From positions 147,966 through 211,965 of the forward strand of contig NZ_ML703264.1 of assembly GCF_008520305.1 (NCBI RefSeq): a DNA stretch of 64,000 nt. Direction: 5' to 3'. The position numbers and the translations under genes are program-made. This stretch comes from Mesorhizobium sp. SARCC-RB16n (GTDB lineage Bacteria > Pseudomonadota > Alphaproteobacteria > Rhizobiales > Rhizobiaceae). The notes beneath the pieces are model-generated. The model was not told the origin of the DNA. It saw nothing but the letters and a program-made list of their open reading frames with translations, and did no database searches. Positions 41,187 through 57,263 of the stretch are shown here, piece by piece; position 1 is the stretch's first letter; the number at the start of each line of letters is the position of its first letter.

Positions 41187-41194
41187 ACAGTCAA

Positions 41195-41208: not shown

Positions 41209-41247
41209 GTCAGCCTGCATTTTGGGGCCAGACGGAAGGAGAACGGA

Positions 41248-41880
41248 ATGGAAAAAATCGGAACAAAGCTCTCGCGCGCAGAACAGAAGGCCCGACGCCC
41301 CCAGGAAATCCTGGAGGCCGCGTTCGAGGAATTCACCGCGAACGGTTATGCAGCTACGCGCGTGGAGGACGTGGCCGCCCGCCTCGGAGTGACCAAGGGA
41401 ACGATCTATTTGTACTTCCCCACGAAGGATGAGCTCTTTGAGGCGATGCACCGACAGATGTCGGCACCCTTCTCCGACCTGCGCGCTTCGGTCGCGGTCT
41501 TGGAGGGGTCATGCTCTGAACGTCTGAGGGCCTTGGTTCGCCTCGCCTACGAAAAGGTTGCAAACGACAGAAGGATAAGGGAATTGCTGCGTCTGGTCTT
41601 AGCCGAGGGCGCACGTTTCCCCCACATGGTCGATCGGCACTATGAGGAGTTCATCGCTCCGGTGGAGGACGCTATAGGCGCACTTGTCCGGGAAGGGGTA
41701 TCATCGGGAGAATTCCGCCGAACGGCCGTTGCGGTCGCACCAGCCGTGTTGGTTAGCCCTGTCCTGCACGCGACCTTCTTGCGCCTGATGTTCGCGGATC
41801 GAAGGCCCTTTGACGAGACCACCTTCATGGAGGCGCATATTGATCTCGTCCTCAATGGTCTGCTGATGCGGAACGGTTGA
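41248..41880 (+). CDS. TetR/AcrR-family repressor of the adjacent RND pump
   Basis: This 210-residue repressor has its helix-turn-helix at residues about 20-65: ILEAAFEEFTANGYAATRVE, then VAARLGVTKGTIYLYFPTKD. The C-terminal ligand domain follows a TetR_C-like form (LRALVRLAYEKVANDRRIRE, MEAHIDLVLNGLLMRNG). GGAGAACGG precedes the ATG. It lies divergent from the three-gene efflux operon, with two palindromic operators in between. The inducer would be a pump substrate. Confidence 0.92.
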   Translation: MEKIGTKLSRAEQKARRPQEILEAAFEEFTANGYAATRVEDVAARLGVTKGTIYLYFPTKDELFEAMHRQMSAPFSDLRASVAVLEGSCSERLRALVRLAYEKVANDRRIRELLRLVLAEGARFPHMVDRHYEEFIAPVEDAIGALVREGVSSGEFRRTAVAVAPAVLVSPVLHATFLRLMFADRRPFDETTFMEAHIDLVLNGLLMRNG

Positions 41881-41961: not shown

Positions 41962-43107
41962 TCACCTGAAAAGCGGGCTGGTTTTCCATACGGTTCCTGC
42001 AGCGCCCTCGTCATATCCGAGCTTATAGACCGTCCGCATATAGTTGGTGTTGAACGGATCGGACATCGAATATGGCACCTGCGCGTCGATCGATGCGAGA
42101 TGGAAATGTGCCCCGGTCAGTTTTGAATAGTTGTAGAGGGCAGTTAGTGCGCTCTGTGTCTGCGACTTGACGAAGATCGTGTATGCCCGCGCGATCACGG
42201 ACAGGGTCTTGTCTGGCGTGGCGGCAAATTCCGGCATGAGTGCGTTGTTGACGATCACGTAGAAATTGACGCTTTGTCGTTTGCTTGCCAGGCGGGCGCT
42301 GCCTGTCAGGAAGACCTGCGGAAAGGTCAGGATCTGTGACGCGGAGCCGCCGTCGGAATGCATCTCCTCGAAGGAGCGCCCCGCAGACGCGGCCTTGATC
42401 ATGACCGCTGGATAAACCCCTGGAATGCTTGCCGACGCCACCAGGATGTCCTGAAAGAGCTTCAGCGCATCCGGACGGCCGCTGTTGGCGATGACGCCCA
42501 TGTTCCACACCACGGCGCGCTGGGTATCCAGGTTGGTCGTCAAGATGAGGAGGCGACGGCCTTTGCGGTGTTCGGCAGCGACCTGCTGGAGAACATTTGG
42601 CGTAATGTAGCGCTCTATCATCCGTCGCAACGGGTCGTCTTTCAGCAGGCTTGCTCCAAACAGTCCACCAAGGCGTTTGCTTCCGACAAGGTCTTCGGCC
42701 ACGCCGCTGGTATAGAGATGCACCAGCGTGTCGTCATAGGCCGAGCCCAGGAATGCGAAAGGCGCGATCAAGGCTCCCGTGCTTACACCGGTGACGACAT
42801 CGAACCGTGGGCGGGTCCTGGCCGCGCTCCATGCCGCAAGCACGCCGACACTGAAGGCGCCGCCGGCGCCGCCGCCAGAAAGCATGAGGCCATCGATCTT
42901 GTCCCGCTTTGTCGCCGGAAACCAGTCGACGGCATTGCGTGGCACCTCGTCGAGCCGGGCGTCGAGGTAGGAACGGATTTCACCATAGCCGGCGATCGAG
43001 GCTTTTTCCGCCTCGCCTGCGTCATGAGCTCTGTCCAGTGTCTGCACGCAGCCGGCCAGGATGAAGGCGACCGGAACCAGGACTGAAAATACTCGCATTG
43101 GGCACAT
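41962..43107 (-). CDS. Patatin-like phospholipase lipoprotein
   Basis: This 381-residue protein has a lipoprotein signal (FSVLVPVAFILAGC, lipobox LAGC). The catalytic parts of a patatin domain are all present: LMLSGGGAGGAFSVG for the oxyanion hole, TGVSTGALIAPF with the nucleophile Ser in G-x-S-x-G, and EEMHSDGGSAS with the Asp of the dyad. It is probably exported and anchored to a membrane. Two starts, ATG 43107 and ATG 43098, are possible, and neither has a strong ribosome site. It follows a small membrane ORF and an RND pump on the same strand, so it may remodel phospholipids when envelope stress induces the pump. Confidence 0.85.
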   Translation of the reverse strand: MCPMRVFSVLVPVAFILAGCVQTLDRAHDAGEAEKASIAGYGEIRSYLDARLDEVPRNAVDWFPATKRDKIDGLMLSGGGAGGAFSVGVLAAWSAARTRPRFDVVTGVSTGALIAPFAFLGSAYDDTLVHLYTSGVAEDLVGSKRLGGLFGASLLKDDPLRRMIERYITPNVLQQVAAEHRKGRRLLILTTNLDTQRAVVWNMGVIANSGRPDALKLFQDILVASASIPGVYPAVMIKAASAGRSFEEMHSDGGSASQILTFPQVFLTGSARLASKRQSVNFYVIVNNALMPEFAATPDKTLSVIARAYTIFVKSQTQSALTALYNYSKLTGAHFHLASIDAQVPYSMSDPFNTNYMRTVYKLGYDEGAAGTVWKTSPLFR

Positions 43108-43109
43108 TT

Positions 43110-43337
43110 TCAAAAACTTGCTGATCTGCAGGGGAGACTTGGCGTTGATCCCGCCGTGACGGGTTCGCTCGGATCCATGAGAATTGCCGGGAGGCTGACG
43201 TGGGTCGCGAATGTACCAGACCTTGCGATCCCGCCTTGATCCCACCGCCTCACTTTCGGCAGCCAAACCTTCGAAAACGCCAGAAGGATCATGATGCAGA
43301 TAAGAGTAACGGCAAGCACGCTGCGAAGGTTGATCAT
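43110..43337 (-). CDS. Small putative membrane protein between pump and patatin genes
   Basis: This 75-residue ORF starts with ATGA overlapping the stop of the RND pump gene and ends just before the patatin start. Residues 2-26 (INLRSVLAVTLICIMILLAF and on) form one hydrophobic helix. The rest is basic and proline-rich with no recognised family. Its exact fit between two genes supports it, but the ribosome site is poor (AAGG next to the ATG). It may equally be a coupling leader. Confidence 0.4.
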   Translation of the reverse strand: MINLRSVLAVTLICIMILLAFSKVWLPKVRRWDQGGIARSGTFATHVSLPAILMDPSEPVTAGSTPSLPCRSASF

Positions 43338-46300
43338 CCTTGCGCATGCTCTCGCTTCGTAGCGCCACGATCAAACGCGATGACTTGCCAATCTCCTGAG
43401 GGATGCGGTTCGTTGTCGGCTGGTTCGACACTCGGCTCGCTCCAGCGCACGAGCCGCTTTAGCGCCATCAGCAGGTCGTCGACGAATGTGAAGATGACCG
43501 GGATGACGATGAGGCTGAGCAGCGTCGAGGTCATCACCCCGCCGATCACCACGATGGCCATCGGCTGGCGGAAGCTGGAATCTCCGCCTACCAGGCTAAG
43601 AGCGACAGGGAGCATGCCCGATGCCATCGCAACGGTGGTCATGACGATGGGCCGTGCGCGCTTGTGGCAGGCATCGATGAGCGCGTCGAACCTAGCCATC
43701 CCCTGGCGCCGCGACATGATCGCATATTCGACAAGAAGGATCGAGTTCTTGGTCACGACGCCCATCAGCATGAGCAGCCCGATAACGACCGACATCGAGA
43801 AGCTGGTCCCGCTTATTACCAGCGGCAGCAGCGCACCACCGAGCGAGAGCGGCAGAGCCATCAGGATGGTGAATGGCTGCAGGAAATCATGGAAGAGCAG
43901 GACGAGGACTGCGTAGATGCAGAACACGCCGATGGCCATTGCAAGGCTGAAGCTCTGGAACAGTTCCGAACTGCGCTGAAGTTCGCCTTGCTCCACAAGG
44001 GTCACGCCCGGCGGCAAGTGGTGGAGGGCCGGCAGTGCCTGTGCCTCTTTGTGAACATCGCCAAGGATGCGGCCGTTGAGTTCGACGGAGACGGTGACAT
44101 TGCGCATTCGATCGATGCGGTCAATCTGGGAGGGACTGCCGCCGATGCGGATATCGGCGATCGATCCGAGATCGACGCTACCGTTCGCGCCGGCCACCCT
44201 GATGTTCCTGATGTCGTCTAGGTTTCTGCGCGTTTCCGGGCTGAAGCGGACGACGATGGGGACCTGGCGTTGCGGCAGATTGAGTTTTGGCAAGTCGGAA
44301 GAATATTCGCCGCCTGTCGCCACACGCACCGCGTCGGCGATAGAGCTTGACGTCACGCCAAGTGCTGCCGCGCGCGCAAAATCGGGGGTGATCTGAATCT
44401 CGGGCGCCTGCCTGGATGCGGTCGACGTCACCGCTCCGATGCCGTGCAGCGTGCGCAGTTGCTCCTCGAGCGCGGAGCCTGCTCCATCGAGAGCGCTGGG
44501 ATCGTCACTGGCAAGGGTGATCTCGAGCTTGGTTCCGTTGGCGCCGCCACCGACTGCGATCTGCACGCCGGGCACGACGGAAAGAGCCTGCCGGATATCG
44601 TTTTCGATTTCGGACTGCTTGCGTTTGCGTTCTTCGATCGGCGTCAGCATGACGACGAGCGTTGCCGTGTTGACACTGGTCGTGGTCGCTACGTCGGGAC
44701 CGCCGCCGGAAGACGCCGAACCAACCGACGCGTAGACATGCGTCACGTTGTGAAGCTTGCCGATGATCTCCGCGGCCTTGCCGCTCACGGCCTGCGTCTG
44801 CTCGATCGTGGCGCCGGGCTGCAGGGTCAGCGTGACCTGGGTTCGCGCATCGTCGGCGGCGGGCAGGAAACCCGATTTCAGGAAAGGGACGGTGGAAAGT
44901 GAAAGTGCGACGGCAACAATGGTCACGAGAACCGTGGTCTTCCTGTGATTGAGGGACGCCTTCACGATTGCCATGTAGGCGCGCATGATACGGCCGTCCC
45001 TTTGCTCGGTTGCCTTGGCCTTCATGAGATAGGCGGCCATCATCGGCGTCAGCAGACGTGCGACGACGAGCGACGCCACGACGGCGACAGCAGCCGTGAC
45101 GCCGAACTGGCGAAAGAGAAGCCCCGGTATACCGCTCATGAAGGCGGTCGGCAGGAAGACAGCGACCAGTGTGAACGTGGTGGCGATGACCGCCAGGCCG
45201 ATCTCGTTGGCCGCTTCGAGCGCGGCATCGATAGGCCGCTTGCCCATCCGAAGGTGTCGGGCGATGTTCTCGATCTCGACGATGGCGTCGTCGACGAGGA
45301 TACCGACCACCAGCGACAGCGCAAGCAGTGTGACGATGTTCAGGGTGAAGCCGGCCAGATACATGACCAGGAAGGTCGGTATGACCGACAGGGGCAGCGC
45401 CACCGCCGATAGGATTGTTGCGCGCCAGTCCCGCAGGAAGAGCCAGACGACGATGATCGCCAGGATCGCCCCCTCGAGCAGCATGTGCATCGAACCATTG
45501 TAGTTGTCGATGATCGGGCCAACGGTACTGTAGGCTTCGTCGATCTGTACGTTGGGATGCGCGGCCGTGAACCGTTCCATCACCTTCCTGACATCGGCCG
45601 CGACGCTGCTGTCCGAGAATCCGTTCGAACGCTTGATCTCGACCGCAATGACGGCCTGGCCATTCAGAAATGCCATCGCCGAGCGTTCGGCGAAGCTGTC
45701 CTTGACGGAGGCTATGTCGTCGAGACGAACCTGCTGTCCATTGGCGAGGGGAATTCGGAGATCCTTCAGATCCTCGACCGATGCAACGGCACCGAGTGTC
45801 CGCAATGTCTGCCGGGTGCCGCCAACCTCGCCAAGGCCGCCCGACGTGTCCGCCTGGACCGACTTCAGTTGCGCCGAGACCGTGGCCGCGGTGACGCCGA
45901 GCGAGGCCATGGTGGCGGGATCGAGGTCGATATGAACCTCGCGATCGACACCGCCGACACGGCTGACTTGTCCCACTCCAGGCACCGAGAGGAGCGCCTT
46001 GGTCATGTCGTTGTCGACAAACCAGGAGAGCTCGGTCTCATTGAGAGCGGTTGAACGGATTGCATAGGTGACCAGCGCGGCATTCTGCACCGTGACCTTG
46101 GTGACGCTGGGTGTCTGCATCTGCGCGGGCAGATCGGCCTTGGCGCTGTCCACGGCATTGCGGACTTCGTTCAGGGCTTCTTCGCTGTTCTTTTCCAGTT
46201 TGAAGGAGACGCGGATCGACACGGTGCCGTCGGTGACCGTCGTGGTGATGTGGTCGAGGTAGCTCAACGAGGCGAGGTTGTCCTCGATAATGCGAGCGAC

Positions 46301-46486
46301 CTCCGTCTCGAGCTGCGCGGGAGCCGCACCGTCGAGTGTGGCGGTGACGCTGATGGTCGGAAGGTCCATATCGGGAAAGTTCTGGACGGCCAGATGCTTG
46401 AATGCCAACAATCCGCCGACAGTAAGCATTGCGAACAGCAATATCGCCGGTACTGGATTGCGGATGGACCATGCCGAGAAGTTCAT
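43334..46486 (-). CDS. RND efflux pump inner-membrane subunit (second system)
   Basis: This 1050-residue pump has the HAE1-type pattern. The first helix is in NPVPAILLFAMLTVGGLLAF, followed by FPDMDLPTISVTATLDGAAP. The proton-relay Asp pair is in GILVDDAIVEIENIARHLRM, and LLFHDFLQPFTILMALPLSL lies in the second half. It overlaps the adaptor gene by 4 nt and the small ORF by 4 nt. It differs clearly from the pump at 35.9-38.9 kb, so the two are not recent copies. Its promoter lies in the region shared with a response-regulator gene. Confidence 0.92.
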   Translation of the reverse strand: MNFSAWSIRNPVPAILLFAMLTVGGLLAFKHLAVQNFPDMDLPTISVTATLDGAAPAQLETEVARIIEDNLASLSYLDHITTTVTDGTVSIRVSFKLEKNSEEALNEVRNAVDSAKADLPAQMQTPSVTKVTVQNAALVTYAIRSTALNETELSWFVDNDMTKALLSVPGVGQVSRVGGVDREVHIDLDPATMASLGVTAATVSAQLKSVQADTSGGLGEVGGTRQTLRTLGAVASVEDLKDLRIPLANGQQVRLDDIASVKDSFAERSAMAFLNGQAVIAVEIKRSNGFSDSSVAADVRKVMERFTAAHPNVQIDEAYSTVGPIIDNYNGSMHMLLEGAILAIIVVWLFLRDWRATILSAVALPLSVIPTFLVMYLAGFTLNIVTLLALSLVVGILVDDAIVEIENIARHLRMGKRPIDAALEAANEIGLAVIATTFTLVAVFLPTAFMSGIPGLLFRQFGVTAAVAVVASLVVARLLTPMMAAYLMKAKATEQRDGRIMRAYMAIVKASLNHRKTTVLVTIVAVALSLSTVPFLKSGFLPAADDARTQVTLTLQPGATIEQTQAVSGKAAEIIGKLHNVTHVYASVGSASSGGGPDVATTTSVNTATLVVMLTPIEERKRKQSEIENDIRQALSVVPGVQIAVGGGANGTKLEITLASDDPSALDGAGSALEEQLRTLHGIGAVTSTASRQAPEIQITPDFARAAALGVTSSSIADAVRVATGGEYSSDLPKLNLPQRQVPIVVRFSPETRRNLDDIRNIRVAGANGSVDLGSIADIRIGGSPSQIDRIDRMRNVTVSVELNGRILGDVHKEAQALPALHHLPPGVTLVEQGELQRSSELFQSFSLAMAIGVFCIYAVLVLLFHDFLQPFTILMALPLSLGGALLPLVISGTSFSMSVVIGLLMLMGVVTKNSILLVEYAIMSRRQGMARFDALIDACHKRARPIVMTTVAMASGMLPVALSLVGGDSSFRQPMAIVVIGGVMTSTLLSLIVIPVIFTFVDDLLMALKRLVRWSEPSVEPADNEPHPSGDWQVIAFDRGATKREHAQG

Positions 46487-47559
46487 AGACCCTGCTCCGC
46501 AATGGTCACGAGGTCGTTGTCCGACAGAAAGGCTCCGCCGGAGGTCACAACCTTCGAGGATTGGTCGATTCCGGAGACGATTTCGACTTCGCCGCCTTGG
46601 CGGCGGCCGGTCTCCACCCGCACCCTTCGCGCTCGCTTGTCGGGATCAACGACAAAGACATAGTTGATGCCGTCGCGAAATACGATTGCGGTGTCAGCGA
46701 TGGTCAGAGCTGGGGTGGTCTGGAACTCGATGCTGCCGGTCACGTAAAGCCCGACGCGCGGCCGGATGTCGGCGGGAAGCGCGACATAGACGATGGCACG
46801 GCCGGTGTTGGCGCTGATCGAAGGTCCGACAAGCCTCACCTTGCCCTGAATGGCACGATCGGCCAGGCCGTTGATACCGACACTCAACCCTTCCGAAATA
46901 TGGGAAAGATAGCGAGCCGAGACTTCCGCCTGCCACTCGACACGCTGCTGGCGCACCAGGCGGAACAGTTCGGTACCGGAGGAGACGACGGCGCCAAGCT
47001 CGGCCGAACGGGAGGTGATCAGGCCATCGTCGATGGCAGATATGGTCGTCTGGTCGAGTTTGATCTTCTGGCTGTCGAGAGCCGCTTCTTCCGACGCAAG
47101 GCTCGCCTGCGCCGTCTGCTCGTCCGTCAACCGTTCGGTGATGCTCTGATCTGAAATGGCACCGGTCTTGCCAAGTTGCCGGGCCCGGTCCGCATTCGCC
47201 CTGGCTTTCGCCAGATTCGCCTTGGCCGTCTGGACCGCAGCCTCCTGCTTTCGAATATCTGCAAGCACGCTGTCCTGCGACAGCAAGACAAGCGTCTGCC
47301 CTTTCGTCACGACGGATCCGACATCCGCCATGACGTCGGTGATGCGGAGGCCGCTCGTCTCGGAGGCGATGATCGCTTCCTGCCATGGCTTCAGCCAGCC
47401 GCTCGCGGGAACGGTCTGCGGCCATTGCCGCTGTTTCGGCGTTGCCAGGGAGACCGTGAGGGCGGGTGCCTGATGCTGATCCGCCACTGCAGTGTGGAAG
47501 GGAAGCAGCAGCGCTGCCCCAACAAGGGCGGTCTTCAATACGATGGACAGTCTTCGCAA
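46483..47559 (-). CDS. RND efflux periplasmic adaptor (second system)
   Basis: This 358-residue membrane fusion protein starts, as chosen here, at TTG 47559, with AAGGA 8 nt upstream. That gives a clean signal peptide RRLSIVLKTALVGAALLLPF ending before DQHQAP. An ATG at 47688 gives 43 more residues that read like promoter DNA and would nearly reach the regulator-binding array. Lipoyl halves are DVMADVGSVVTKGQTLVLLS and SAELGAVVSSGTELFRLV, around a long coiled coil. The C-terminal part is NYVFVVDPDKRARRVRVETG. It overlaps the pump gene (ATGA). Confidence 0.85.
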   Translation of the reverse strand: MRRLSIVLKTALVGAALLLPFHTAVADQHQAPALTVSLATPKQRQWPQTVPASGWLKPWQEAIIASETSGLRITDVMADVGSVVTKGQTLVLLSQDSVLADIRKQEAAVQTAKANLAKARANADRARQLGKTGAISDQSITERLTDEQTAQASLASEEAALDSQKIKLDQTTISAIDDGLITSRSAELGAVVSSGTELFRLVRQQRVEWQAEVSARYLSHISEGLSVGINGLADRAIQGKVRLVGPSISANTGRAIVYVALPADIRPRVGLYVTGSIEFQTTPALTIADTAIVFRDGINYVFVVDPDKRARRVRVETGRRQGGEVEIVSGIDQSSKVVTSGGAFLSDNDLVTIAEQGL

Positions 47560-47704
47560 CGTTACGATCCTTGAAGTTCGCTCACCAGCGCTTTCCCCAA
47601 TCCGCAAATCGGCAGACATTTCTCTGGTGATAGCGCAGCCGTCGGGGCGAGCCGTTTCCAGCCCACAACCGATGTCATCAGGTTTCAAGGCTAGCCGAAC
47701 GAAC

Positions 47705-47741
47705 GTTAAGTGCCGTCAAGTTCATGTTAAGCTGGGTAAAA
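47705..47741 (+). promoter_or_regulatory. Four-hexamer direct-repeat array at the pump/regulator promoter
   Basis: GTTAAG (47705), GTCAAG (47715), GTTAAG (47726) and GTAAAA (47736) start 10, 11 and 10 bp apart, so all lie on one face of the helix. Such phased direct repeats are what dimers of OmpR/PhoB-family regulators bind. GTAAA-N5-GTAAA is the box described for CpxR. The array lies 62 nt before the response-regulator gene and 146 nt before the adaptor gene. Confidence 0.65.
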
Positions 47742-47802
47742 TCCTGCCGCTGACCGGTGTCCATGGTGTACAGGAGGCCGGAATGAATGACGGACAAAGC
47801 AG

Positions 47803-48489
47803 ATGAACAGAGTTCTCCTCATCGACGATGATGTCGAGCTGACGACACTTCTGCAGGAATACCTGACGGAAGAAGGCTATGAGGTCGTAACCGAAACGGA
47901 CGGTCGCGCAGCCATAGCCGCTGCTGCCGGCAATTCGGCGGACATCATCGTGCTCGATATCATGATGCCGCGAATGAACGGCATCGAAGTCCTCCAGAGG
48001 ATCAGGAAAGTGAGCCGGATCCCAGTGCTCATGCTGACGGCAAGAGGCGACGACATTGATCGGATTTCGGGCCTGAATCTCGGCGCTGATGACTATGTGC
48101 CAAAGCCCTGTTCACCGGGAGAGCTCGCGGCCAGGCTGCGCGCCATCCTTCGTCGTGCGAGCCAGCCCGCGGCCGGTGCATCCACTGATGTGCTGAAGGC
48201 TGGGCGGCTGGTGATCCATCCCGGCAGAAGGAGTGCGGAGTGGGACGGACAGGTTTTGGATCTCACCGGCACCGAGTTCACCCTGCTCGAAGTGCTCGCT
48301 CGCAATGCCGGGCAGTTGGTATCGAAGCAGGACATCTCGAAACGTGCCTTCGGAAAGCCTTTGACTCCGTTCGACCGCCGCATCGATGTCCATATCAGCA
48401 GTGTTCGCCAGAAGCTCGGGCTGAGAGATGACGGGCAATCCTGGATCCAGTCTGTCCGCGGGCAAGGCTACCAACTTCTGGTGGATTGA
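47803..48489 (+). CDS. OmpR-family response regulator (CpxR-like)
   Basis: This 228-residue regulator has a receiver domain with acidic pocket DDD (residues 8-10), the phospho-acceptor Asp52 in VLDIMMP, Thr in MLTARG and Lys in VPKPCS. It has a C-terminal winged helix (LDLTGTEFTLLEVLARNAGQ to VRGQGYQLLVD) that includes RRIDVHISSVRQKLG. The kinase gene begins 2 nt after its stop. It is divergent from an RND efflux operon. The GTWAAR arrays here and at 49.85 kb are its probable binding sites. The overall type is closest to CpxR. Confidence 0.92.
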   Translation: MNRVLLIDDDVELTTLLQEYLTEEGYEVVTETDGRAAIAAAAGNSADIIVLDIMMPRMNGIEVLQRIRKVSRIPVLMLTARGDDIDRISGLNLGADDYVPKPCSPGELAARLRAILRRASQPAAGASTDVLKAGRLVIHPGRRSAEWDGQVLDLTGTEFTLLEVLARNAGQLVSKQDISKRAFGKPLTPFDRRIDVHISSVRQKLGLRDDGQSWIQSVRGQGYQLLVD

Positions 48490-48491
48490 TC

Positions 48492-49790
48492 ATGCCGCGG
48501 CTGTTTTGGAAGTTTTTCACGATAATCTGGCTGACGCTTGCCGCGGTTGTCGTGGTCACAATCCTGTTCGTCAATGCCTTCCTGACACCTCCCTTCGTTC
48601 CGCAACTGGAGCATCAGAAGCGCCAACTCGTTCTCGACCTGGCGCAAAACGTGCTTGCAAGGGATGGCGAAGACGCAGCGGCGCATTTTGTCGGCACGAG
48701 CGAAGATACGGCACCGCTTGGCCTCACGATTTCCAGGGTCGCGGACTCCGGCGCTTGCCCTGACCAGAATACAATTGAGACAAGAGCCGTCTTGAAAGAC
48801 GGCGTCTGTTACCGGATCTCCGTCTCCGAACAATCCGGCGTCATTCTTGAGAGACTTGCCCAGTTGATGCCCTGGCTCGCTATCATGGTCTCAAGCGCAA
48901 TAGCGGCGGCGGCACTTGCCCGATATCTCATCCGTCCCGTCGTGCACCTTCGCGACGGGTTGAGCGCGCTAGCCCACGGTCGTTTCGATGTTCGCATCGG
49001 TGACAGGATGGCGGGCCGCAGGGACGAAGTCACCGCACTCGCGCATGATTTCGATGCCACCGCCACGCGACTGCAGGAGCTCCAGGATACACAGCAGCGG
49101 CTCTTTCACGACGTGTCTCACGAACTGCGTTCGCCTTTGTCGCGGCTACAGGCCGTTGTGGGCGTGCTACGGCAAAATCCGACGAAACTCGAAGCCATGC
49201 TGGACCGCATGGACCGGGAAGTCGAACGGCTCGATGCGCTGGTCGGAGAAGTCCTGACACTCGCAAGGCTGACAATGAAATCGGGCCTTCCGCTGCAAAC
49301 GCAGATGTTGGACGTGGTAGATCTCCTGAACGAAATCCTGGGGGATGCAGCGTTCGAGGCACAGGCAAGGGAGGTCTCTATCACGACGAGTGTCGACGGC
49401 GTTTTCCTAGCCGAGATCGAAGGTGAACTGATCTACCGCGCATTTGAAAACGTCGTCCGAAACGCCGTCAAATACACGGCCAAGTTTTCTCAAATATCCG
49501 TGCTTTGCGAGATGACAGACGATCTCCTGACGGTTCGCGTCGTGGATCAGGGACCAGGCGTCGGGCGAGACGAACTCGAACGGATCTTCCAGCCGTTCTC
49601 GCGCGGCAGCCACGCGATGCCGAGAGGCGGGTATGGTCTCGGCCTTGCGATCACGAGGCAGGCGGTCGAGCGTCACGGCGGGCGTGCCTTCGCTTCGCTT
49701 CCACATGGGGGCGGCCTGGCCATTACCCTGGAGGTCCCTCGCAAGCCGACCGGGCATGGCCTGGAAGGCAAGCTTGCAAGGAGCGCTTAA
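48492..49790 (+). CDS. Sensor histidine kinase (CpxA-like)
   Basis: This 432-residue membrane kinase has helix 1 at residues about 8-30 (FFTIIWLTLAAVVVVTILFV). A periplasmic loop of about 90 residues contains two Cys (GACPDQN, DGVCYRI). Helix 2 follows (LAIMVSSAIAAAALARYLI), then HAMP (RPVVHLRDGLSALAHGRFDV). The H-box is FHDVSHELRSPLSRLQ, the N-box FENVVRNAVKYTA, and the G-boxes are VVDQGPGVG and GGYGLGLAI. ATG 48492 is 2 nt past the regulator stop. It probably senses envelope damage through the periplasmic loop; the Cys pair might add redox input. Confidence 0.92.
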   Translation: MPRLFWKFFTIIWLTLAAVVVVTILFVNAFLTPPFVPQLEHQKRQLVLDLAQNVLARDGEDAAAHFVGTSEDTAPLGLTISRVADSGACPDQNTIETRAVLKDGVCYRISVSEQSGVILERLAQLMPWLAIMVSSAIAAAALARYLIRPVVHLRDGLSALAHGRFDVRIGDRMAGRRDEVTALAHDFDATATRLQELQDTQQRLFHDVSHELRSPLSRLQAVVGVLRQNPTKLEAMLDRMDREVERLDALVGEVLTLARLTMKSGLPLQTQMLDVVDLLNEILGDAAFEAQAREVSITTSVDGVFLAEIEGELIYRAFENVVRNAVKYTAKFSQISVLCEMTDDLLTVRVVDQGPGVGRDELERIFQPFSRGSHAMPRGGYGLGLAITRQAVERHGGRAFASLPHGGGLAITLEVPRKPTGHGLEGKLARSA

Positions 49791-49850
49791 GAGCCCCTTT
49801 CCACATGGAATCATCAGTTGAAGGCCGGACAAGCCGCGAAGCCTTTCAAG

Positions 49851-49887
49851 TTTTACCCAACTTTACACTTCCTTTACGGCCATTAAC
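49851..49887 (-). promoter_or_regulatory. Four-hexamer direct-repeat array before the DUF3313 gene
   Basis: Read on the minus strand: GTTAAT (49882-49887), GTAAAG (49872-49877), GTAAAG (49861-49866) and GTAAAA (49851-49856). Steps are 10, 11 and 10 bp, the same as in the array at 47705, and the last hexamer is identical. The array lies 51 nt before the DUF3313 ATG. It suggests that the two-component system also drives this operon. Confidence 0.65.
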
Positions 49888-49937
49888 GCTGGCATCGCTA
49901 AAGCTGAACCCAAGATCCCTGTTCAGAAGATTGGCAA

Positions 49938-50774
49938 ATGACCTTCAGGTTCCAGCTACGTGAAACGTGCGCGCGGGCGACGCTCTGTATCGCCCTATGC
50001 GTATCGATTGCTTCTTGCGCCAGCGTTCCCCTTCGTCAGGGGACGTCGCTTGGTTCCTATGAAGGAATGGCAAAGTCGGGCGGCACGCAGACGAAGGCAA
50101 AGCTGCGCGTGGACTCGGGATCAGTCCTTACCGCAAAGACGGTACGTATCATGCCAACCTCGGCACAGACCGTCGGCACCTTCGATCCCAAGGATCTGGC
50201 GCTGGTCGACAACGCGATCGATCGATCGCTTTGCACAAGCCTCAGCGATCGCTTCAAGGTCGTGGCTGCGGACCAACCGGCGGACCTCGTGGTCCATGCA
50301 ACGATCACCGATATCGTGGCGACAAACAAGCTGGCCGCGGCGACATCCACCGTCGCCTCGCTCGGCGCTTCGGTGGTGTCCGTCCCAATGCCGCGGCTCC
50401 CGATCGGCCTCGGCGGGATGGCCATCGAAGCCGAGGCGGTCGGCCAGGACGGATCACAGAAGGCGGCCATGTTGTGGTCGCGCGGCGCGAACATGCTCAC
50501 GACAAAGGCCCGGGTATCCACGGTCGGCGATGCCTATTCACTCTCTTCCGCCTTTGGTTCCGACTTCGGCCGCATGCTGGTCAAGGGCCAGGATCCGTTC
50601 AAGGAGACGGTGGTGATGCCGTCCATGCAAAAGATTAAGGCATCGCTTGGCGGCAATCCAAAATACGAGGCCTGCAAGGCATTTGGATCGGCCCCCGGCA
50701 TCAAAGGCGCCGTCGCTGGTCAGCTCGGGCTGCCGCCGGGCTGGACCGACAAGGGTGCGGCAGCCCGCCAGTAG
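49938..50774 (+). CDS. DUF3313-type lipoprotein
   Basis: This 278-residue protein has a lipoprotein signal (ATLCIALCVSIASC, lipobox IASC). The mature domain (LGSYEGMAKSG, PKDLALVDNAIDRSLCTSLS, FKVVAADQPADLVVHATITD, GGMAIEAEAVGQDGSQKAAM) matches the DUF3313 family of exported proteins of unknown function. It lies after the regulator-kinase pair and a phased repeat array. It starts a likely operon with a small secreted protein and a NodT-type outer-membrane factor. A role in envelope upkeep is inferred from position only. Confidence 0.78.
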   Translation: MTFRFQLRETCARATLCIALCVSIASCASVPLRQGTSLGSYEGMAKSGGTQTKAKLRVDSGSVLTAKTVRIMPTSAQTVGTFDPKDLALVDNAIDRSLCTSLSDRFKVVAADQPADLVVHATITDIVATNKLAAATSTVASLGASVVSVPMPRLPIGLGGMAIEAEAVGQDGSQKAAMLWSRGANMLTTKARVSTVGDAYSLSSAFGSDFGRMLVKGQDPFKETVVMPSMQKIKASLGGNPKYEACKAFGSAPGIKGAVAGQLGLPPGWTDKGAAARQ

Positions 50775-50876: not shown

Positions 50877-51236
50877 ATGAAGATGAAACTACTCGCGGCA
50901 GCAACGTCAGTGCCGCTGCTTGCCTCAGGCGCATCGTTTGCCGCACAGGAACAGGCTTTCCTGGCTCCGCAGAAGGCTGCCGCCATACTGGCCGACGGCT
51001 CTCCGTGGTCGGCCGATACGCCTGATGGCAAGACGCTCAAATTCACCCTCAAGAAGGATGGCACCGGAAGCATACGCGGCCCCATGCCGTTCACGCTTTC
51101 CATCACCTGGACGGTCCGGGGCGACGCGATGTGCATCACCGGGAAGATGGGCACCAAGTGCCTTCGGTTTCGCGACGTCCCCAGAGGGCTTCAGGGTTGG
51201 GACGGCGACAAGCCTGACCTGAAATTCAGCCGCTGA
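50877..51236 (+). CDS. Small secreted protein of unknown function
   Basis: This 119-residue protein has a signal peptide KLLAAATSVPLLASGASFAA. The mature part (DGSPWSADTPDGKTLKFTLK, FTLSITWTVRGDAMCITGKM, GTKCLRFRDV) looks like a small beta-rich fold with two Cys that could form a disulphide. AGGAGACCGAA is just before the ATG. It lies between a DUF3313 gene and an outer-membrane factor gene, 102 nt and 253 nt away. No family was recognised with confidence. Confidence 0.75.
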   Translation: MKMKLLAAATSVPLLASGASFAAQEQAFLAPQKAAAILADGSPWSADTPDGKTLKFTLKKDGTGSIRGPMPFTLSITWTVRGDAMCITGKMGTKCLRFRDVPRGLQGWDGDKPDLKFSR

Positions 51237-51489: not shown

Positions 51490-53007
51490 ATGACCATCGT
51501 CTCTGCCTGCAGAAAAGCTTCGTCCCTTCGAACCGGGGCAATCAAGGTTGCGATCTGCCTCTTGAGCACCTCGACCTTCACTGGATGTGTCGTCGGGCCG
51601 GACTACCAGCAACCGGCACTGACGATGCCTGCAACCTGGGACGGCCAGAAGGCCGCCAAGCCGGCCGGGCCGGCGCAGTTGTCGAAATGGTGGGAGCGAC
51701 TGCGCGACCCGGAACTCAACGCGCTTGTCGAGGAAGCAGTTGCCGGCAATCTCGATGTTGCCACCGGAAAAGCCAGGGTCCGCGAAGCAAGGGCGAGCTA
51801 CCGCCAAAGCGCAGGAACATTGTTCCCGTCTGTCGACGGCTCGGCGTCCGTAACACGCACCAAGGCGAACGCAATCTCATCGGCCGGCACCACCAGCGAT
51901 GCGTACAGTCAGTACCAATCCGGCTTCGACGCCAGCTGGGAGTTGGACCTGTTCGGCGCCAACCGCAAGGCCGTCGAGGTCGCTCGCTACGGGGTGGACG
52001 CGGCCCAGGAGGAACTGCGGTCGACCTTGCTGACATTGGTCGGCGATGTCGTGTCCAATTATGCGCAGGCGCGCGGCTATCAGGCGCGCGTCGCGCTCGC
52101 CCGGCGTTCGGCAGCCTCGGAGAAGGAGACCGCCGAGCTGACCCGCGCGGTGGCTGCAGCCGGTACAGCGACGGCGGCGGACGTCGCCAAGGCGACCGGA
52201 CAGGCCAGCAGCACGGAGGCCGCCATCCCCACGCTGGAAGCGAGCTATGCCGAAGCCGTGCATCGCCTTTCGGTGCTCACCGGCCGGCCGCCGGCGGCGC
52301 TCGACGAGCGGTTGAAGCGCGGCGCGCCAATCCCGGCGCCGCGCCTGCCGATCCCTGCGGGTATTCCGGCCGACATCTTGCTTGCCCGGCCGGATGTGCG
52401 CATGGCCGAGCGGCAGTACGCGCAGTATACGGCCAAGATAGGCCAGGCTGAAGCGGCGCGCTATCCTTCGGTCAGCCTGACAGGGAATATCAGCACGACA
52501 GCCTACAAGCTTGGCGATATCGGCAAGAACTCCACGGTCGGCTGGTCGTTCGGGCCGACGCTCAGTGTGCCGCTCTTCGATGCCGGCCAGCTCAAGGCCG
52601 CGATCGATGTCGCCAAGGCCCAGCGCGACCAGTATTTCGTCGCCTACCAGGCCTCCGTGCTGAGCGCGCTGGAGAACGTCGAAAACGCGCTCGTCTCCCT
52701 GGCGCAGGAGCGCATCCGGAGCGGCAAGCTCGCCGCCTCGGCAAAAGCCTACAGCGAGGCGGCCGGGCTGGAGCGCACGCTCTACAAGGGCGGCGAGACA
52801 AACCTTCTCGACGTGCTTGACGCTGAACGGTCGGCCTATTCGGCCGAGGACACGCTGCTGCAAAGCCGCGTCCTGATCGCGACCGATTATATCGCCCTCA
52901 ACAAGGCGTTGGGCGGTGGCTGGGATGGCACGATCGACAGCGCCAAGCCCGAAATCGTCGACTTCAAGCAAGGTCCAAGGTTGGCGGCGCAAGCAGCGAC
53001 ACAATGA
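51490..53007 (+). CDS. NodT-type RND outer-membrane factor lipoprotein
   Basis: This 505-residue outer-membrane channel is of the TolC/OprM superfamily. The lipoprotein signal ends in TSTFTGC, and the mature form starts CVVGPDYQQPALTMPATW, the NodT/CusC style. The two OEP repeats are seen in WWERLRDPELNALVEEAVAG and the second half around RLPIPAGIPADILLARPDVR. LLDVLDAERSAYSAEDTLLQ is near the end. It is the only outer-membrane factor in the window and could serve either of the two RND pumps, both of which lack their own. The 253-nt gap before it holds no gene. Confidence 0.92.
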   Translation: MTIVSACRKASSLRTGAIKVAICLLSTSTFTGCVVGPDYQQPALTMPATWDGQKAAKPAGPAQLSKWWERLRDPELNALVEEAVAGNLDVATGKARVREARASYRQSAGTLFPSVDGSASVTRTKANAISSAGTTSDAYSQYQSGFDASWELDLFGANRKAVEVARYGVDAAQEELRSTLLTLVGDVVSNYAQARGYQARVALARRSAASEKETAELTRAVAAAGTATAADVAKATGQASSTEAAIPTLEASYAEAVHRLSVLTGRPPAALDERLKRGAPIPAPRLPIPAGIPADILLARPDVRMAERQYAQYTAKIGQAEAARYPSVSLTGNISTTAYKLGDIGKNSTVGWSFGPTLSVPLFDAGQLKAAIDVAKAQRDQYFVAYQASVLSALENVENALVSLAQERIRSGKLAASAKAYSEAAGLERTLYKGGETNLLDVLDAERSAYSAEDTLLQSRVLIATDYIALNKALGGGWDGTIDSAKPEIVDFKQGPRLAAQAATQ

Positions 53008-53057: not shown

Positions 53058-53744
53058 ATGTCCCAAATTTACGACCTTGTATCCGCTCTGGTGCGGCGCA
53101 TCTACGAAAGACGTATCGACGCGCCGGCGATCCTCGATACTACCACCGACTTTCCCAACGCGACAAAATTCACGGCCGCCTGGCAGGCGATCCGCAGTGA
53201 AGCGCTTGCCGTGCACCTGGGCAAGGTGCCTCGCTTTCACGATATCATGCCGGAGCAAGCCGAGATCTCGGCCAATGACGGTCTTGATTGGCGAATGTTC
53301 GTACTCAAAGCCTACGACATTGCAGTGTCCGAAAACCTTGCGCGAATGCCCGTCCTTGCCCGGCTGCTTGCCGAATGCCCCGAGGTGAAGTCGGCGGCGA
53401 TTTCGTTCCTCGCCCCGCGAAAGCACATTCCCAGCCATCGCGGACCCTTTAGGGGCATAATGCGATTTCATCTTGGCTTGGCCATTCCGCGACAGGCGGA
53501 TGGCCGCCCGGCGACTGTCATGAGGATCAACCATCAAGAGAAGCGGATCGCCGATGGAGAGTGCATGCTATGGGATGACACCTTTCCTCATGAGGTTACA
53601 AATCATGCCGATCAGGCTCGTGTCGCCCTGCTTCTGGATGTCTGGCGCCCAAGGATGCCGCCGGACATGGAGCTTCTCTCTCGGCTGATCGTCCGCGGAG
53701 TGCAGGTCGGGATGCGCCGTAGAGGCGTGTCCTTCACCGGTTGA
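53058..53744 (+). CDS. Aspartyl/asparaginyl beta-hydroxylase-like dioxygenase (LpxO-like)
   Basis: This 228-residue Fe(II)/2-oxoglutarate dioxygenase shows the family blocks APRKHIPSHRGPFRGIMRFH, with its first iron His and the Arg that binds 2-oxoglutarate, and CMLWDDTFPHEVTNHADQAR with the second His. It ends VALLLDVWRP. The family hydroxylates peptidyl Asp/Asn or, as LpxO, the secondary acyl chain of lipid A. It follows the outer-membrane factor by 50 nt. A lipid-A or other membrane target fits the envelope genes around it but is an inference. ATGTCC at 53058 is preceded by GAGGCAACG. Confidence 0.82.
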   Translation: MSQIYDLVSALVRRIYERRIDAPAILDTTTDFPNATKFTAAWQAIRSEALAVHLGKVPRFHDIMPEQAEISANDGLDWRMFVLKAYDIAVSENLARMPVLARLLAECPEVKSAAISFLAPRKHIPSHRGPFRGIMRFHLGLAIPRQADGRPATVMRINHQEKRIADGECMLWDDTFPHEVTNHADQARVALLLDVWRPRMPPDMELLSRLIVRGVQVGMRRRGVSFTG

Positions 53745-54560
53745 GCTGCGTCGGGAGCGATCGTACCGCAAGCCCCAGAGTAACCCGAATCCTCGCTTCG
53801 GCGGACCAGCCACACGGCCACCCCCTGGCCGCGCGCAACCCGCCGGATGACGCAGCCGAACCGGAGGTCTGCTTCTCTGCACGGCAGACACTTCTCGCCA
53901 CCGCCTTCCCCGCAATGGCGACAACTCCGGCCGGCTGCGCCGGCCGGCCGGGTCATACCCAATCACCGGCCGGCCGGTGTTCTTTAGAAGCGGCAAGCAC
54001 GTTCGTCGCTTCCGCTCAAATCGAGCACCGGGATTCGCGATGATGTGGGAAACCTTGATGATACCGCGGCGACTAGTGTCTTTCGGCGTTGGCTCTGGCG
54101 GTCGGCCGCCACACTCACCGCGTGCCGCCAGCCCCGCCCATTAATTACCCGCAGATGAGCTCTGCTCAACCGCAGCAACGAATCCTGAACTCGCAAGTCG
54201 TTGGGTGGGGGAGCAAAATCCTGCTCCAGCGAGATTCTTGGCTTTGAGGCAGGCATGACGCGCCTTTGTCGAAGCAATCTGTGTCTCATATGGCAACAGA
54301 CGCCGCGCAAGGCTCATGGCCGATCTGCCGATCGAACGCTGATACCGGCGAACTGCTGTAGCGCAACTCGCTTTGTCTTATAGATGACTGTCGCTTCAAT
54401 TTCCCGCCGCCGGTCTGCCAAATGGGCAACCAGATGATATCTAGACCAATCTGCGAAAGACGTTCACGGACAATTAGTAGACATCAATTAACATGGCGGC
54501 GATCTTAGCTCATTGCTTGCAAAATTGTTTTGCTCGGCAGGCGGAATTGGAGAACGCTAC
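53745..54560. other. 816-bp intergenic region without a supported gene
   Basis: Apart from the CCGGCCGG hairpins near 53.95 kb I find no gene. The GC content drops in the right half (about 54400-54520). Short open frames here have no ribosome site or recognisable protein. One ORF starting at ATG 54493 (29 codons) runs across the start region of the GGDEF-EAL gene in a different frame. Confidence 0.6.
53927..53978. repeat. CCGGCCGG hairpin and adjacent palindrome
   Basis: CCGGCCGGC-TGC-GCCGGCCGG (53927-53947) is a perfect 9-bp stem with a 3-nt loop. Seventeen bases later ACCGGCCGGCCGGT (53965-53978) is a perfect 14-bp palindrome. They lie about 180 nt after the hydroxylase gene. They may end its transcript, though no T-run follows. 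Confidence 0.6.
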
Positions 54561-57263
54561 TTGGTCGCGGAATCGTCAGTAGCCGCTGTGGAGACAGCCG
54601 GTCAGACGCATCTGGCCGCGCTATCGCAGCTGGCCGTTGCCTCCTATGAAACCCTGGAGCGCGAGCTCAGGGCCACGATTGCCGTGCTCGAAGCCCAGGC
54701 ACGACGCTTCGAGATGGCAATCGACAATATCCCGCAAGGCATTTGCTTTTTCGACGTCGATGAGCGGCTGATCCTGTGCAACCGCCGCTACGTCCAAATA
54801 TACGGCATCGCGCCTGACAAGCTGCAGGCGGGCATTACACTTGCCGACGTCGTCGAACAACTGCTCGCTGCGGGAACATCCGCGATGGACGGCCCGGCCT
54901 ATCTGGCTTTCGCCCGCTCGATCAGTTCCAGCACCGGGCCGAGGATCTGGATCGCCGAACTCAAGGACGGTCGCATCATCCAGGTTGGCCGTCAGCCGAT
55001 TCCCGGCGGGGGCTGGGTGTCGACACATGAGGACGTCACCGAACTCGCCGCCAGCCGTGTGATGGTCAGCGAACGCGTTTCGCTGCAGGCGCTGATCGAC
55101 TGGGTTCCCGACTATCTATGGGTCAAGGATTCCGAAAGCCGCTTCGTCGTGGCCAACAGGGCCCTCGCCGCGGACCATGGCAGGCAGGACCCGAGCGAGA
55201 TGATCGGCCTCAACGACTTCGACCTGCACGCGCCCGAACTCGCACGGGTGTTCCGTGCCAACGAGCAGGACCTGCTGCGCAGCGGTCAGCCGATTGTCGA
55301 CAAGGAGGAATTCATCGTCGATGCTTCGGGGACCGGCAAATGGCTGTCATCGACGAAAGTACCCCTGCGAAACGCCGAGGACGAAATTTTCGGCCTGGTT
55401 GGCATCGCCCGCGACATCACGGCGCGCAAGCAAGCGGACGATCTGCGGCATGGACAGGCGCATATCCTGGAGATGATCGCGACAAGTGCGCCGCTTCCCG
55501 AGGTGCTCGAACGTCTGATGCGCCTCATCGAGTCGCAACTGAGCGGTATAGTCGGCTCGGTGCTGCTGCTCGACAAGGACGGCACTCATCTGCACCACGG
55601 TGCGGCGCCCAGCTTGGCGAGGGAGTACACCCACGCCATCGACGGCACCCGCATCGGCCCCAAGGTCGGCTCCTGCGGCACCGCCGCCTATCGGCGCGAG
55701 CCTGTCATCGTCACCGATATTGTGAGCGATCCCCTATGGGAGGATTTTCGCGATCTGGTGAGGCCCTATGGCTACCGTTCCTGCTGGTCGACGCCGATCC
55801 TGTCGCATACCGGCGTGGTGCTCGGCGTCTTTGCCATGTATTCGAAGACGGTGCGCGAGCCGACAAAGGCCGAGAGCAATCTCATCGATTTCACCACCCG
55901 CATCGCCGGCATCGCCATCGAGCGCAAGCTTGCCGAAGACCGTATCCATTTCATGGCCAACCACGACACGCTGACCGGGCTGCCCAACCGCGCCCTGCTC
56001 GGCGACAGGCTCTCGCAGGCCATCCTCTATGCCCAGCGCTACGGCCGCTGGGTGAGCGTGGTGTTCATCGATCTGGACAATTTCAAGCTTGTCAACGATA
56101 CGCTCGGTCACAACGCCGGAGACATGCTGTTGAAGGCCGTCGCCAGCCGCATGGTCGAATGCGTCAGGGCGACCGATACCGTCGTGCGGCTAGGCGGCGA
56201 CGAATTCGTCGTCGTCCTCTTCGACCAGGATCCGAATGTCGACCTCATTGCCGCGACTTTGCAGAAGATCCGGACGGCAATCGCCGAGCCCGTTTGCCTG
56301 GGTGAGCATCACATCAGGGCAACGGTCAGTATGGGCGTCGCTAATTACCCCGATGACGGCGCCACGACGGATGTGCTGCTGGCCAACGCCGATGCCGCTA
56401 TGTACCGCGCCAAGGAGCTCGGCCGCGACAATTTCCAGTTCTATGCGCCCGAATTCAACGCGACGGCCCAGGAGAAATTCCTGCTGCAGGAGGAGTTGCG
56501 CAACGCGCTGGCGCGCGCCGAGTTCACACTGCTCTATCAGCCGCAGGTCGATCTTCGCTCCGGCAACGTCTTTGCCGTCGAGGCGCTGATCCGCTGGAAC
56601 CATCCGAGCCTCGGACTGATCGCGCCGATGAAGTTTATCCCAATGGCCGAGGAGACCGGCCTGATCGTGCCGATCGGCAACTGGGTGCTGCACGAAGCCT
56701 GCAGACAGAACAAGGCCTGGCAGGACGCAGGCCTGCCGCCGCTGGTGGTGTGCGTGAACGTATCGGCAAGGCAGTTCAAGGAAAAGAATCTGATCGGCCA
56801 CGTGGTCGATGCGCTGACGGACAGCGGCCTGGAGGCGAAATACCTCGAACTCGAACTGACCGAGAGCCTGATCATGCAGAATGTCGAGATGGCAGTGGCG
56901 ACGATGAACCAACTGCAGAGCCTTGGCGTGCAGATCTCGATCGACGATTTCGGCACCGGCTATTCCAGCCTCAGCGCACTGAAGACCTTTCCGGTGGCGC
57001 GGCTGAAGATCGATAAATCCTTCATCAACGATCTCGCTACCGATGAGAACGACCAGGCCGTCGCCAGCGCCGTGATCTCGCTTGGACAGAAGCTCAATCT
57101 GCGTGTAATCGCGGAAGGCGTCGAAACAGACAATCAGATAGCGTTCCTGCGCAAAAATAACTGTGACGAGATGCAGGGCTATCATTTCAGTAAGCCGGTC
57201 TCCGCCAATGGGATCGCGAGACTGCTCGACAAGGAGCAAGGTGGTCACACTTCGCCAGAATGA
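54561..57263 (+). CDS. PAS-PAS-GAF-GGDEF-EAL cyclic-di-GMP protein
   Basis: This protein of about 900 residues starts with a short coiled region, then PAS 1 (AIDNIPQGICFFDVDERLIL), PAS 2 (LIDWVPDYLWVKDSESRFVV), GAF (GSVLLLDKDGTHLHHGAAPS, GSCGTAAYRREPVIV), GGDEF and EAL. The GGDEF site is complete, with the product-inhibition site RATD five residues before it. The EAL part has FAVEALIRW, DDFGTGYSS, LKIDKSFI and AEGVET, so both activities look possible. There is no membrane helix. TTG 54561 has GGAG 8 nt upstream; an in-frame TTG at 54513 is the alternative and no ATG is near. It stands alone, flanked by long AT-richer gaps. Confidence 0.88.
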   Translation: MVAESSVAAVETAGQTHLAALSQLAVASYETLERELRATIAVLEAQARRFEMAIDNIPQGICFFDVDERLILCNRRYVQIYGIAPDKLQAGITLADVVEQLLAAGTSAMDGPAYLAFARSISSSTGPRIWIAELKDGRIIQVGRQPIPGGGWVSTHEDVTELAASRVMVSERVSLQALIDWVPDYLWVKDSESRFVVANRALAADHGRQDPSEMIGLNDFDLHAPELARVFRANEQDLLRSGQPIVDKEEFIVDASGTGKWLSSTKVPLRNAEDEIFGLVGIARDITARKQADDLRHGQAHILEMIATSAPLPEVLERLMRLIESQLSGIVGSVLLLDKDGTHLHHGAAPSLAREYTHAIDGTRIGPKVGSCGTAAYRREPVIVTDIVSDPLWEDFRDLVRPYGYRSCWSTPILSHTGVVLGVFAMYSKTVREPTKAESNLIDFTTRIAGIAIERKLAEDRIHFMANHDTLTGLPNRALLGDRLSQAILYAQRYGRWVSVVFIDLDNFKLVNDTLGHNAGDMLLKAVASRMVECVRATDTVVRLGGDEFVVVLFDQDPNVDLIAATLQKIRTAIAEPVCLGEHHIRATVSMGVANYPDDGATTDVLLANADAAMYRAKELGRDNFQFYAPEFNATAQEKFLLQEELRNALARAEFTLLYQPQVDLRSGNVFAVEALIRWNHPSLGLIAPMKFIPMAEETGLIVPIGNWVLHEACRQNKAWQDAGLPPLVVCVNVSARQFKEKNLIGHVVDALTDSGLEAKYLELELTESLIMQNVEMAVATMNQLQSLGVQISIDDFGTGYSSLSALKTFPVARLKIDKSFINDLATDENDQAVASAVISLGQKLNLRVIAEGVETDNQIAFLRKNNCDEMQGYHFSKPVSANGIARLLDKEQGGHTSPE

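Follow-up and report, generated by a model that had tools for sequence, protein, structure and literature searches.

Four-repeat GTNAA arrays as probable operators of a CpxR-like regulator linking efflux and envelope genes in Mesorhizobium and related rhizobia

A 64,000-nucleotide stretch of the Mesorhizobium sp. SARCC-RB16n genome (NZ_ML703264.1, positions 147,966 to 211,965; hereafter, the window) contains two arrays of four GTNAA-type repeats that flank the genes of a response regulator and a sensor histidine kinase resembling CpxR and CpxA, respectively. On the strength of sequence comparisons, we propose, with a probability of about 0.85, that these arrays are the operators of the CpxR-like regulator encoded between them, which would activate the divergent operon of an RND (resistance-nodulation-division) efflux pump and the downstream unit of a DUF3313 lipoprotein, with autoregulation via array 1, which is probably shared and also drives the regulator's own gene. 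Activation of three orthologous promoters by the regulator has been demonstrated in Rhizobium etli only; direct binding, the involvement of two dimers, phosphorylation and the class of activation we infer. The arrays and their half-sites (S1 to S4) are:

47705..47741, plus strand: array 1 (GTTAAG, GTCAAG, GTTAAG, GTAAAA), between the pump adaptor and response regulator genes
47705-47710, 47715-47720, 47726-47731 and 47736-47741, plus strand: S1, S2, S3 and S4 of array 1
49851..49887, minus strand: array 2 (GTTAAT, GTAAAG, GTAAAG, GTAAAA), predicted operator of the DUF3313 transcription unit
49882-49887, 49872-49877, 49861-49866 and 49851-49856, minus strand: S1, S2, S3 and S4 of array 2

The claim of the initial annotation that the two arrays share the order and spacing of their repeats was borne out exactly: in both, successive repeats start 10, 11 and 10 bases apart, and the score against four GTNAA cores is 16/16. 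As also claimed, each runs opposite to the gene that it would serve, with array 1 pointing away from the pump adaptor (minus strand) and array 2 away from the DUF3313 gene (plus strand); read in gene orientation, the common form of the array is TTTTAC-N4-CTTTAC-N5-CTTTAC-N4-nTTAAC. Below these, the window has a single score of 13 and two of 12, the remainder being 11 or less; the 13 and one of the 12s are shifted registers overlapping array 1, and the other 12 overlaps array 2. None of 40 simulated windows (first-order Markov, same dinucleotide make-up) scored above 12. The proposed likeness to doubled CpxR boxes holds as well, each array consisting of two tandem pairs with a 10-base period and a looser core, GTNAA. 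The regulon proposed along with the arrays stands in part: the pump and DUF3313 units face arrays, whereas the outer-membrane factor (OMF) and OlsC/LpxO-like genes have no array of their own in the window, although relatives have such arrays, and the patatin gene has none directly upstream.

The arrays are conserved among relatives of this locus. A genome scan with the kinase as the query yielded 69 loci, of which 51 (L001-L050 and L054; mostly Rhizobium, and all from this one kinase query with peptide patterns) combine 66-78% identity with a related setting. The exact array is present in 50 of these 51 orthologous loci, the exception being L041, which has two arrays of 15/16. In 52 sources (836,648 bases), the 10/11/10 pattern produced 118 exact arrays, against three matches in total for the other 215 of the 216 spacings tried (two at 10/10/10, one at 11/10/8 and none at the remaining 213); eleven altered cores at 10/11/10 gave no matches in the same sources. 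The 11/10/8 match, in L020, is a shifted register within a true array; the two exact matches at 10/10/10 are genuine and precede the regulator gene in L039 and L041. Retention of the phasing in close relatives, a check set beforehand, is thus confirmed, and the phasing is not absolute: a 10/10/10 form precedes the regulator in three loci (L039, L041 and L133), and more distant loci show variants. Arrays persist in divergent relatives with kinase identities of 44-58% (G211, G255, G377, G062, G096 and G456, 15-16/16; G259, 14/16), and the loci of 18 distant kinase relatives (identity of 39% or less) contain no 10/11/10 score of 13 or more. Arrays equivalent to array 2 precede DUF3313, OMF or LpxO genes in relatives, and the gene order adaptor-permease, regulator-kinase, OMF or DUF3313, which is the arrangement around the R. 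etli regulator RetPC57, is conserved. As a separate observation, more distant CpxR-like regulators (48-49%) in L149, L150, L151 and L153 have 14/16 upstream matches at 11/11/11, three of which end in two GTAAAA 11 bases apart; these arrays are perhaps an older, two-site form.

The distribution of the arrays across genomes was assessed with R1, a sequence-only profile of 52 arrays that was allowed at most 150 scored candidates per genome. R1 found at least 37 matches in 12 genomes, 1-8 per genome, of which 36 lie within 15 kb of a kinase gene (the exception is G011:C1:548906, 25.6 bits). These counts are a lower bound because R1 missed L140:3488 and L140:13689, both matched by the pattern; single-box sites are outside its reach, which limits what the counts say about a genome-wide regulon of periplasmic folding factors like that of the Cpx system. 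The regulon looks compact and local, centered round the locus. Of the Cpx-like regulon originally suggested, the adjacent CpxR/CpxA-like pair and the pump and envelope targets remain, and the target set found looks small and local rather than like a global Cpx response. In larger, overlapping genome samples, searched with stricter filters at the cost of weak matches, arrays (E≤1e-3) were found in 8 of the 249 genomes of the order sample, the same eight that have the kinase at E≤1e-40. With G001 and G008, whose arrays were among those that trained the model, and G140, whose array letters are identical to those of training locus L006, set aside, the tally is five of five genomes with the kinase versus none of 241. 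The family sample gave arrays in 4 and the kinase in 6 of 151 genomes, the four being among the six, and the class sample gave arrays in 2 and the kinase in 11 of 279, again with the two among them. In the phylum sample of 299 genomes, 6 have arrays and 86 have the kinase at E≤1e-40; 81 of the latter are without an array. Four of the array genomes have kinases of 71-76% identity, and G896 combines a 34% kinase with a weak, 21-bit array. G907 (L175:5585-5786) is a degraded, lost system with relic operators: a deletion fuses the start of the regulator to the end of the kinase, leaving two exact arrays and one of 14/16 at 10/10/10. The exact coincidence of array and kinase is limited to the order sample, whereas the class and phylum samples contain many more distant CpxA-like kinases without arrays.

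Experimental evidence comes from R. etli, where the RetPC57-RetPC58 pair (RHE_PC00057/58) has the same gene order as the window, with the adaptor and permease genes divergent from the regulator and kinase genes and the OMF gene downstream; RetPC57 is a regulator of the same kind and activates the pump, the OMF and itself (PMC7769827). Unlike the R. etli cluster, that in the window additionally includes DUF3313, orf119 and the OlsC/LpxO-like gene. In strain CE3 with inducible RetPC57, addition of cumate raised the reporter of RetPC56 (adaptor) from 29 to 190, and that of nodTc from 43 to 1099; the promoter of RetPC57 itself went from 204 to 793 (PMC7769827). A single 928-bp intergenic fragment, cloned in both orientations, makes up the adaptor and regulator fusions, and the fourth fusion, located within the operon ahead of RetPC58, showed no activity (PMC7769827). 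Loss of RetPC57 lowers pump expression on bean roots as well as nodulation, and the pump and nodTc genes fall in the regulator mutant on roots (PMC7769827). On plasmid p42c of R. etli CFN 42, which was absent from R1 training but is close to training loci, R1 yielded only two matches at E≤0.1. Both are exact arrays, one between RetPC56 and RetPC57 and the other before nodTc, and they face the three responsive fusions. Neither 'binding site' nor 'GTAAA' occurs in the passages of PMC7769827 that were consulted, and a search of the open-access literature revealed no published description of a four-repeat site; as far as these searches reach, the array is new as a described site.

The regulator appears to work like CpxR without being filed as CpxR, since the CpxR and CPXR entries are its best matches and the score falls below the cut-off: CpxR is the best of 101 NCBIfam models, at 260 bits (cut-off 341), and a chain named CPXR (4uht) is the best Protein Data Bank match of the DNA-binding domain, at 107.6 bits, with the next at 58.4. 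Likewise, the best models for the kinase are two of CpxA, at 216 and 197 bits (cut-offs 800 and 486). The described CpxR box is GTAAAN5GTAAA (PMC2912261) or GTAAA-(N)4-8-GTAAA (PMC5063474). The window thus resembles the CpxR-CpxA systems of Escherichia coli and Pseudomonas in the CpxR-type DNA-binding domain and the paired GTAAA boxes, and CpxR of P. aeruginosa also activates an RND pump, as proposed here (PMC5063474); unlike those systems, the window type has two boxes, a near-fixed phase, a fixed TA (see below) and a local regulon. CpxP and NlpE homologs are reported missing in rhizobial relatives (PMC7769827). Sinorhizobium meliloti SMb21560-SMb21562 includes rhizobial CpxA and CpxR homologs with a GTAAAN5GTAAA match upstream and, as a difference, is grouped with a CpxP homolog, a comparison drawn from the description in PMC2912261.

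The sequences next to the arrays suggest how such operators could work. In an alignment of the flanks of 112 distinct arrays (the 118, minus one short of flank and five duplicates), the positions beyond S1 include T at +12 in 98% and A at +13 in 99%; outside the array, only one other position of the pooled set exceeds 90%, namely G at +10 (95%). This TA is kept in 11 of the 12 arrays scoring 14 or more from nine loci outside the model training, which were reached via kinase and model matches. The S1 side faces a gene of the searched locus within 350 bases in 88 of the 118 arrays (36 adaptor, 28 OMF, 21 DUF3313 and one LpxO gene, with the histidine kinase and orf119 once each, by a crude start estimate), with none assigned in the other 30; the S4 side faces the regulator gene alone, in 46 of 118, and otherwise none. 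The predicted promoter elements in the window are:

47689..47694, minus strand: -10 region of the pump promoter, with TA at +12/+13 past S1 (in 46 of 48 pump-side arrays)
47767..47772, plus strand: -10 of the response regulator promoter (TGTACA), 26 bases past S4, at a conserved position
49898..49903, plus strand: -10 region of the DUF3313 promoter, with TA at 49899-49900, at a fixed position

At the -10 place of the regulator promoter, xGTA or xTTA is found in 45 of 48 loci with an adjacent pump and in five of six pump-less loci. The block that adjoins S4 and reads into the regulator gene is promoter-like, by eye approximately TTGGCC, 18 bases and TGTATG in many loci; in the window copy, the -35 part is poor.

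With the TA fixed 12-13 bases past S1, the operator lies in the -35 place with a -10 at a fixed distance, which is class II geometry of the PhoB/OmpR type. In class II promoters of this type, such as those with tandem pho boxes, head-to-tail half-sites spaced by 10-11 bases replace the -35 element and the -10 is fixed; unlike these, the arrays in the window have the 10/11/10 phase and the GTNAA core and are reused by a divergent promoter. We envisage two head-to-tail dimers of the phosphorylated regulator on each array, one bound to S1-S2 and the other to S3-S4, each pair of half-sites being a CpxR-type box with a 10-base period and the two pairs set 11 bases apart. The S1 end would replace the -35 element and hold RNA polymerase on a weak -10 with the TA 12-13 bases on, and the pump operon and the DUF3313 unit would be switched on from this side (class II activation). 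The S4 end of array 1 would adjoin a second promoter, reading the regulator and kinase genes, for positive, class I-like autoregulation. The target set would be compact, comprising the efflux pump, the outer-membrane factor, envelope lipoproteins and lipid-modifying enzymes.

The region upstream of the regulator varies with the presence of the pump next door. We compared 54 such regions, 48 adjacent to a pump and 6 pump-less, including L129 and L130 and leaving out L006, whose regulator lies at the edge of the contig, as well as the divergent loci L131, L132, L134, L136-L139 and L146. With the pump next door, S1-S4 are perfect and the middle spacing is 11 in 48 of 48, and the pump-side TA is present in 46; in the six pump-less loci, S1 is perfect in three, S2 in three, S3 in all six and S4 in five, and the TA in none. 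The possibility that the array upstream of the regulator is simply absent from pump-less loci was rejected because such loci, scanned in a relaxed way, yielded arrays that are either 10/10/10 or eroded. The middle spacing is 10 in five of them (L036, L039, L040, L041 and L133); for the sixth, L001, the scripted score also gave 10, although a 9/11/10 register, that is, a middle spacing of 11, fits better. In the five with a spacing of 10, the arrays that precede downstream genes keep the 10/11/10 form, so the spacing can differ between promoters of one regulator. Outside this set, the 10/11/10 form is accompanied by an OMF or adaptor gene opposite in L139 (15/16), L146 (16/16) and the Agrobacterium plasmid loci L161-L163 (16, 15 and 16), and by other genes opposite in L134 and L136; in L132 and L137, the regulator is not preceded by an array. 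Together with the exceptions given below, these cases indicate that the 11-base phase and the pump go together firmly in the close set and only loosely in more divergent loci. One tentative reading, which we consider somewhat less probable than its negation, is that of a two-faced operator whose inner spacing helps to set the promoter served, with 11 bases between the dimers for the pump or envelope promoter, driven from S1 (class II), together with the regulator promoter where one abuts S4 (class I), and 10 mainly for the regulator; its odds are lowered because L138 and L160, with a spacing of 10 beside a pump operon, break a strict rule. If it is true, the pump -10, the 11-base phase and S1-S2 would be at liberty to decay once the neighborhood has lost the pump, a pattern seen in Mesorhizobium-type loci and L001. 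L160 itself is a betaproteobacterial plasmid locus (Variovorax sp. PDNC026) with a related regulator (about 62%), a kinase, a pump and a 14/16 array at 10/10/10, which suggests horizontal transfer.

Several observations weigh against the operators having the role proposed here. The -10 elements have little strength outside the TA, which in L002 and L042 is missing from its exact position. As few as two independent events may underlie the six pump-less loci, five of which share one arrangement, and L001 retains an adaptor-like fragment (44%) beside the regulator. Some loci outside the 54 count in part against a strict rule. In L131, the pump is opposite and yet S2 is damaged (14/16); L138 (G117), also with the pump opposite, has a variant 10/10/9-10; in Variovorax L160, with OMF and pump opposite, S1 is damaged and S2-S4 are intact at 10/10/10; the array missing before the regulator of L132 counts here as well, and the G907 relic keeps the TA without a pump. 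Among kinase-bearing genomes, G117 and G119 of the family sample gave no match at E≤1e-3, with nothing array-like before the regulator of G119, and neither did 9 of the 11 in the class sample (36-44% identity). Both the CpxR and the CpxA NCBIfam scores lie under the curated cut-offs. In R. etli, the array scan covered p42c alone, and the mutant also shows lower nodA, nodB, rmrA and rmrR and higher mexE1, mexF1, nif and fix genes (PMC7769827).

Among the alternatives, the best surviving one, which we nevertheless regard as improbable, is that a single dimer on S3-S4 makes up the regulator box, with S1-S2 as a second element for a different protein or for RNA polymerase itself. The regulator-side pair indeed survives best in pump-less loci, and S2 differs from the other half-sites in reading GTCAA in each of the 47 adaptor arrays; however, the GTNAA core is common to all four half-sites, and in the 53 arrays of the DUF3313/OMF type, GTAAA is found at S3 in all and at S2 in 69%. 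Several OmpR-family regulators bind direct repeats with a period of about 10 bases, so the arrays might belong to another widespread member of this family, such as ChvI, the Cpx-like pair being a mere neighbor. Such regulators are numerous, with 18 encoded by R. etli CE3 (PMC7769827). This explanation is quite unlikely given that a widespread regulator would leave sites elsewhere, whereas the arrays in the order sample coincide with the kinase in exactly 8 of 249 genomes, and that induced RetPC57 activates array-bearing promoters (PMC7769827). It is less likely still that the arrays, while operators of this regulator, are repressor sites for the divergent pump: array 1 overlaps the place of the pump -35, where a bound protein could block the polymerase, but in R. 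etli, as noted, the pump and nodTc promoters rise on induction and the genes fall in the mutant on roots (PMC7769827). Finally, short A/T-rich hexamers recur randomly, but the Markov, spacing and core controls together with the promoter-bound placement in divergent genomes refute a chance origin and leave next to no room for a mobile repeat element.

The genes between and around the operators proposed here are, in the order of their coordinates:

41962..43431, minus strand: patatin-like protein with a lipoprotein-like start, downstream of the pump (PF01734, 78 bits)
43334..46486, minus strand: RND pump permease (ACR_tran, 764 bits)
46483..47619, minus strand: RND pump periplasmic adaptor (TIGR01730, 206 bits; HlyD_3, HlyD_D23)
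47803..48489, plus strand: CpxR-like response regulator, ortholog type of R. etli RetPC57 (family and PDB matches)
48486..49790, plus strand: CpxA-like sensor histidine kinase (HAMP, HisKA, HATPase_c; two CpxA models best in NCBIfam)
49938..50774, plus strand: DUF3313 lipoprotein (PF11769, 91 bits)
50877..51236, plus strand: orf119, a small, probably exported protein of 119 aa without a family
51490..53007, plus strand: NodT-family outer-membrane efflux factor (TIGR01845, 385 bits; OEP)
53058..53744, plus strand: OlsC/LpxO-like acyl hydroxylase (NF052565, 122 bits, cut-off 450; LpxO, 90 bits, cut-off 500)

The open reading frame (ORF) of the adaptor spans 46483-47688, with the ATG at 47619 as the likely start, and orf119 produced no matches in Pfam or NCBIfam. 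Beside the pump locus, at 38941-41880, there is a second efflux-type unit with two HlyD-type adaptors and a divergent TetR gene, and the 916-aa ORF at 54513-57263 resembles, by eye, a PAS/GAF/GGDEF/EAL signaling protein. A promoter and terminator scan of the window was uninformative, with one promoter-like and four terminator-like sites, below the shuffled counts.

Elsewhere, arrays precede ORFs for an OlsC/LpxO-like hydroxylase (distance of 88 bases), a methyltransferase (113), a VTT-domain protein (188) and membrane methyltransferases of the PEMT/ICMT type (56 and 67); less certain array genes encode a TetR protein (177), an EAL protein (277) and a GNAT protein of Acetyltransf_5 (348, with a short ORF between), a family to which we take OlsB to belong. 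The theme of the array-bearing genes is efflux together with envelope lipid change. The array at L140:3488, before a secretin gene, was considered as a member and set aside as probably unrelated, being without the TA. The leader of the DUF3313 gene contains an inverted repeat:

49904..49926, plus strand: CTGAACC-N9-GGTTCAG, ahead of the start codon and close to where the mRNA is predicted to begin

In leaders of the DUF3313/OMF type, such a repeat often lies at about +17 to +39, and a stem of at least six pairs is present in the searched stretch of 50 of 55, compared with 20 of 47 adaptor leaders. Across 37 leaders, 86.3% of cells pair, versus at most 47.1% when slid. Four of the six stem pairs change on both sides, and because 28 of 500 shuffles reach that number, covariation lends the hairpin modest support. 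By eye, the inverted repeat is not visible in the aligned leaders of L132, L134 and L135. It could possibly be a 5' stabilizing hairpin or a second operator. A different setting was observed in L016:1-1560 (pRL10, about 295.2-295.6 kb) and ten other loci of the R. leguminosarum group, where the array is accompanied by a small ORF; for the pRL10 array, no downstream gene is listed in an incomplete gene table. In 11 of 11 loci, this ORF starts with (V/L/M)SKA(H/P)RNI and ends with DISIGGTG, the middle of variable length being kept in frame, which makes it a candidate for an unannotated small protein of the regulon.

With these operators, RetPC57, a regulator of rhizobial symbiosis, gains a precise, testable target site, and candidate direct targets become predictable from genome sequence. 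The arrays link efflux to outer-membrane lipoproteins and lipid-modifying enzymes, and the pump-less loci offer, as a natural experiment, a view of how two promoters may share an operator of four sites, a matter for which mutagenesis is the usual approach.

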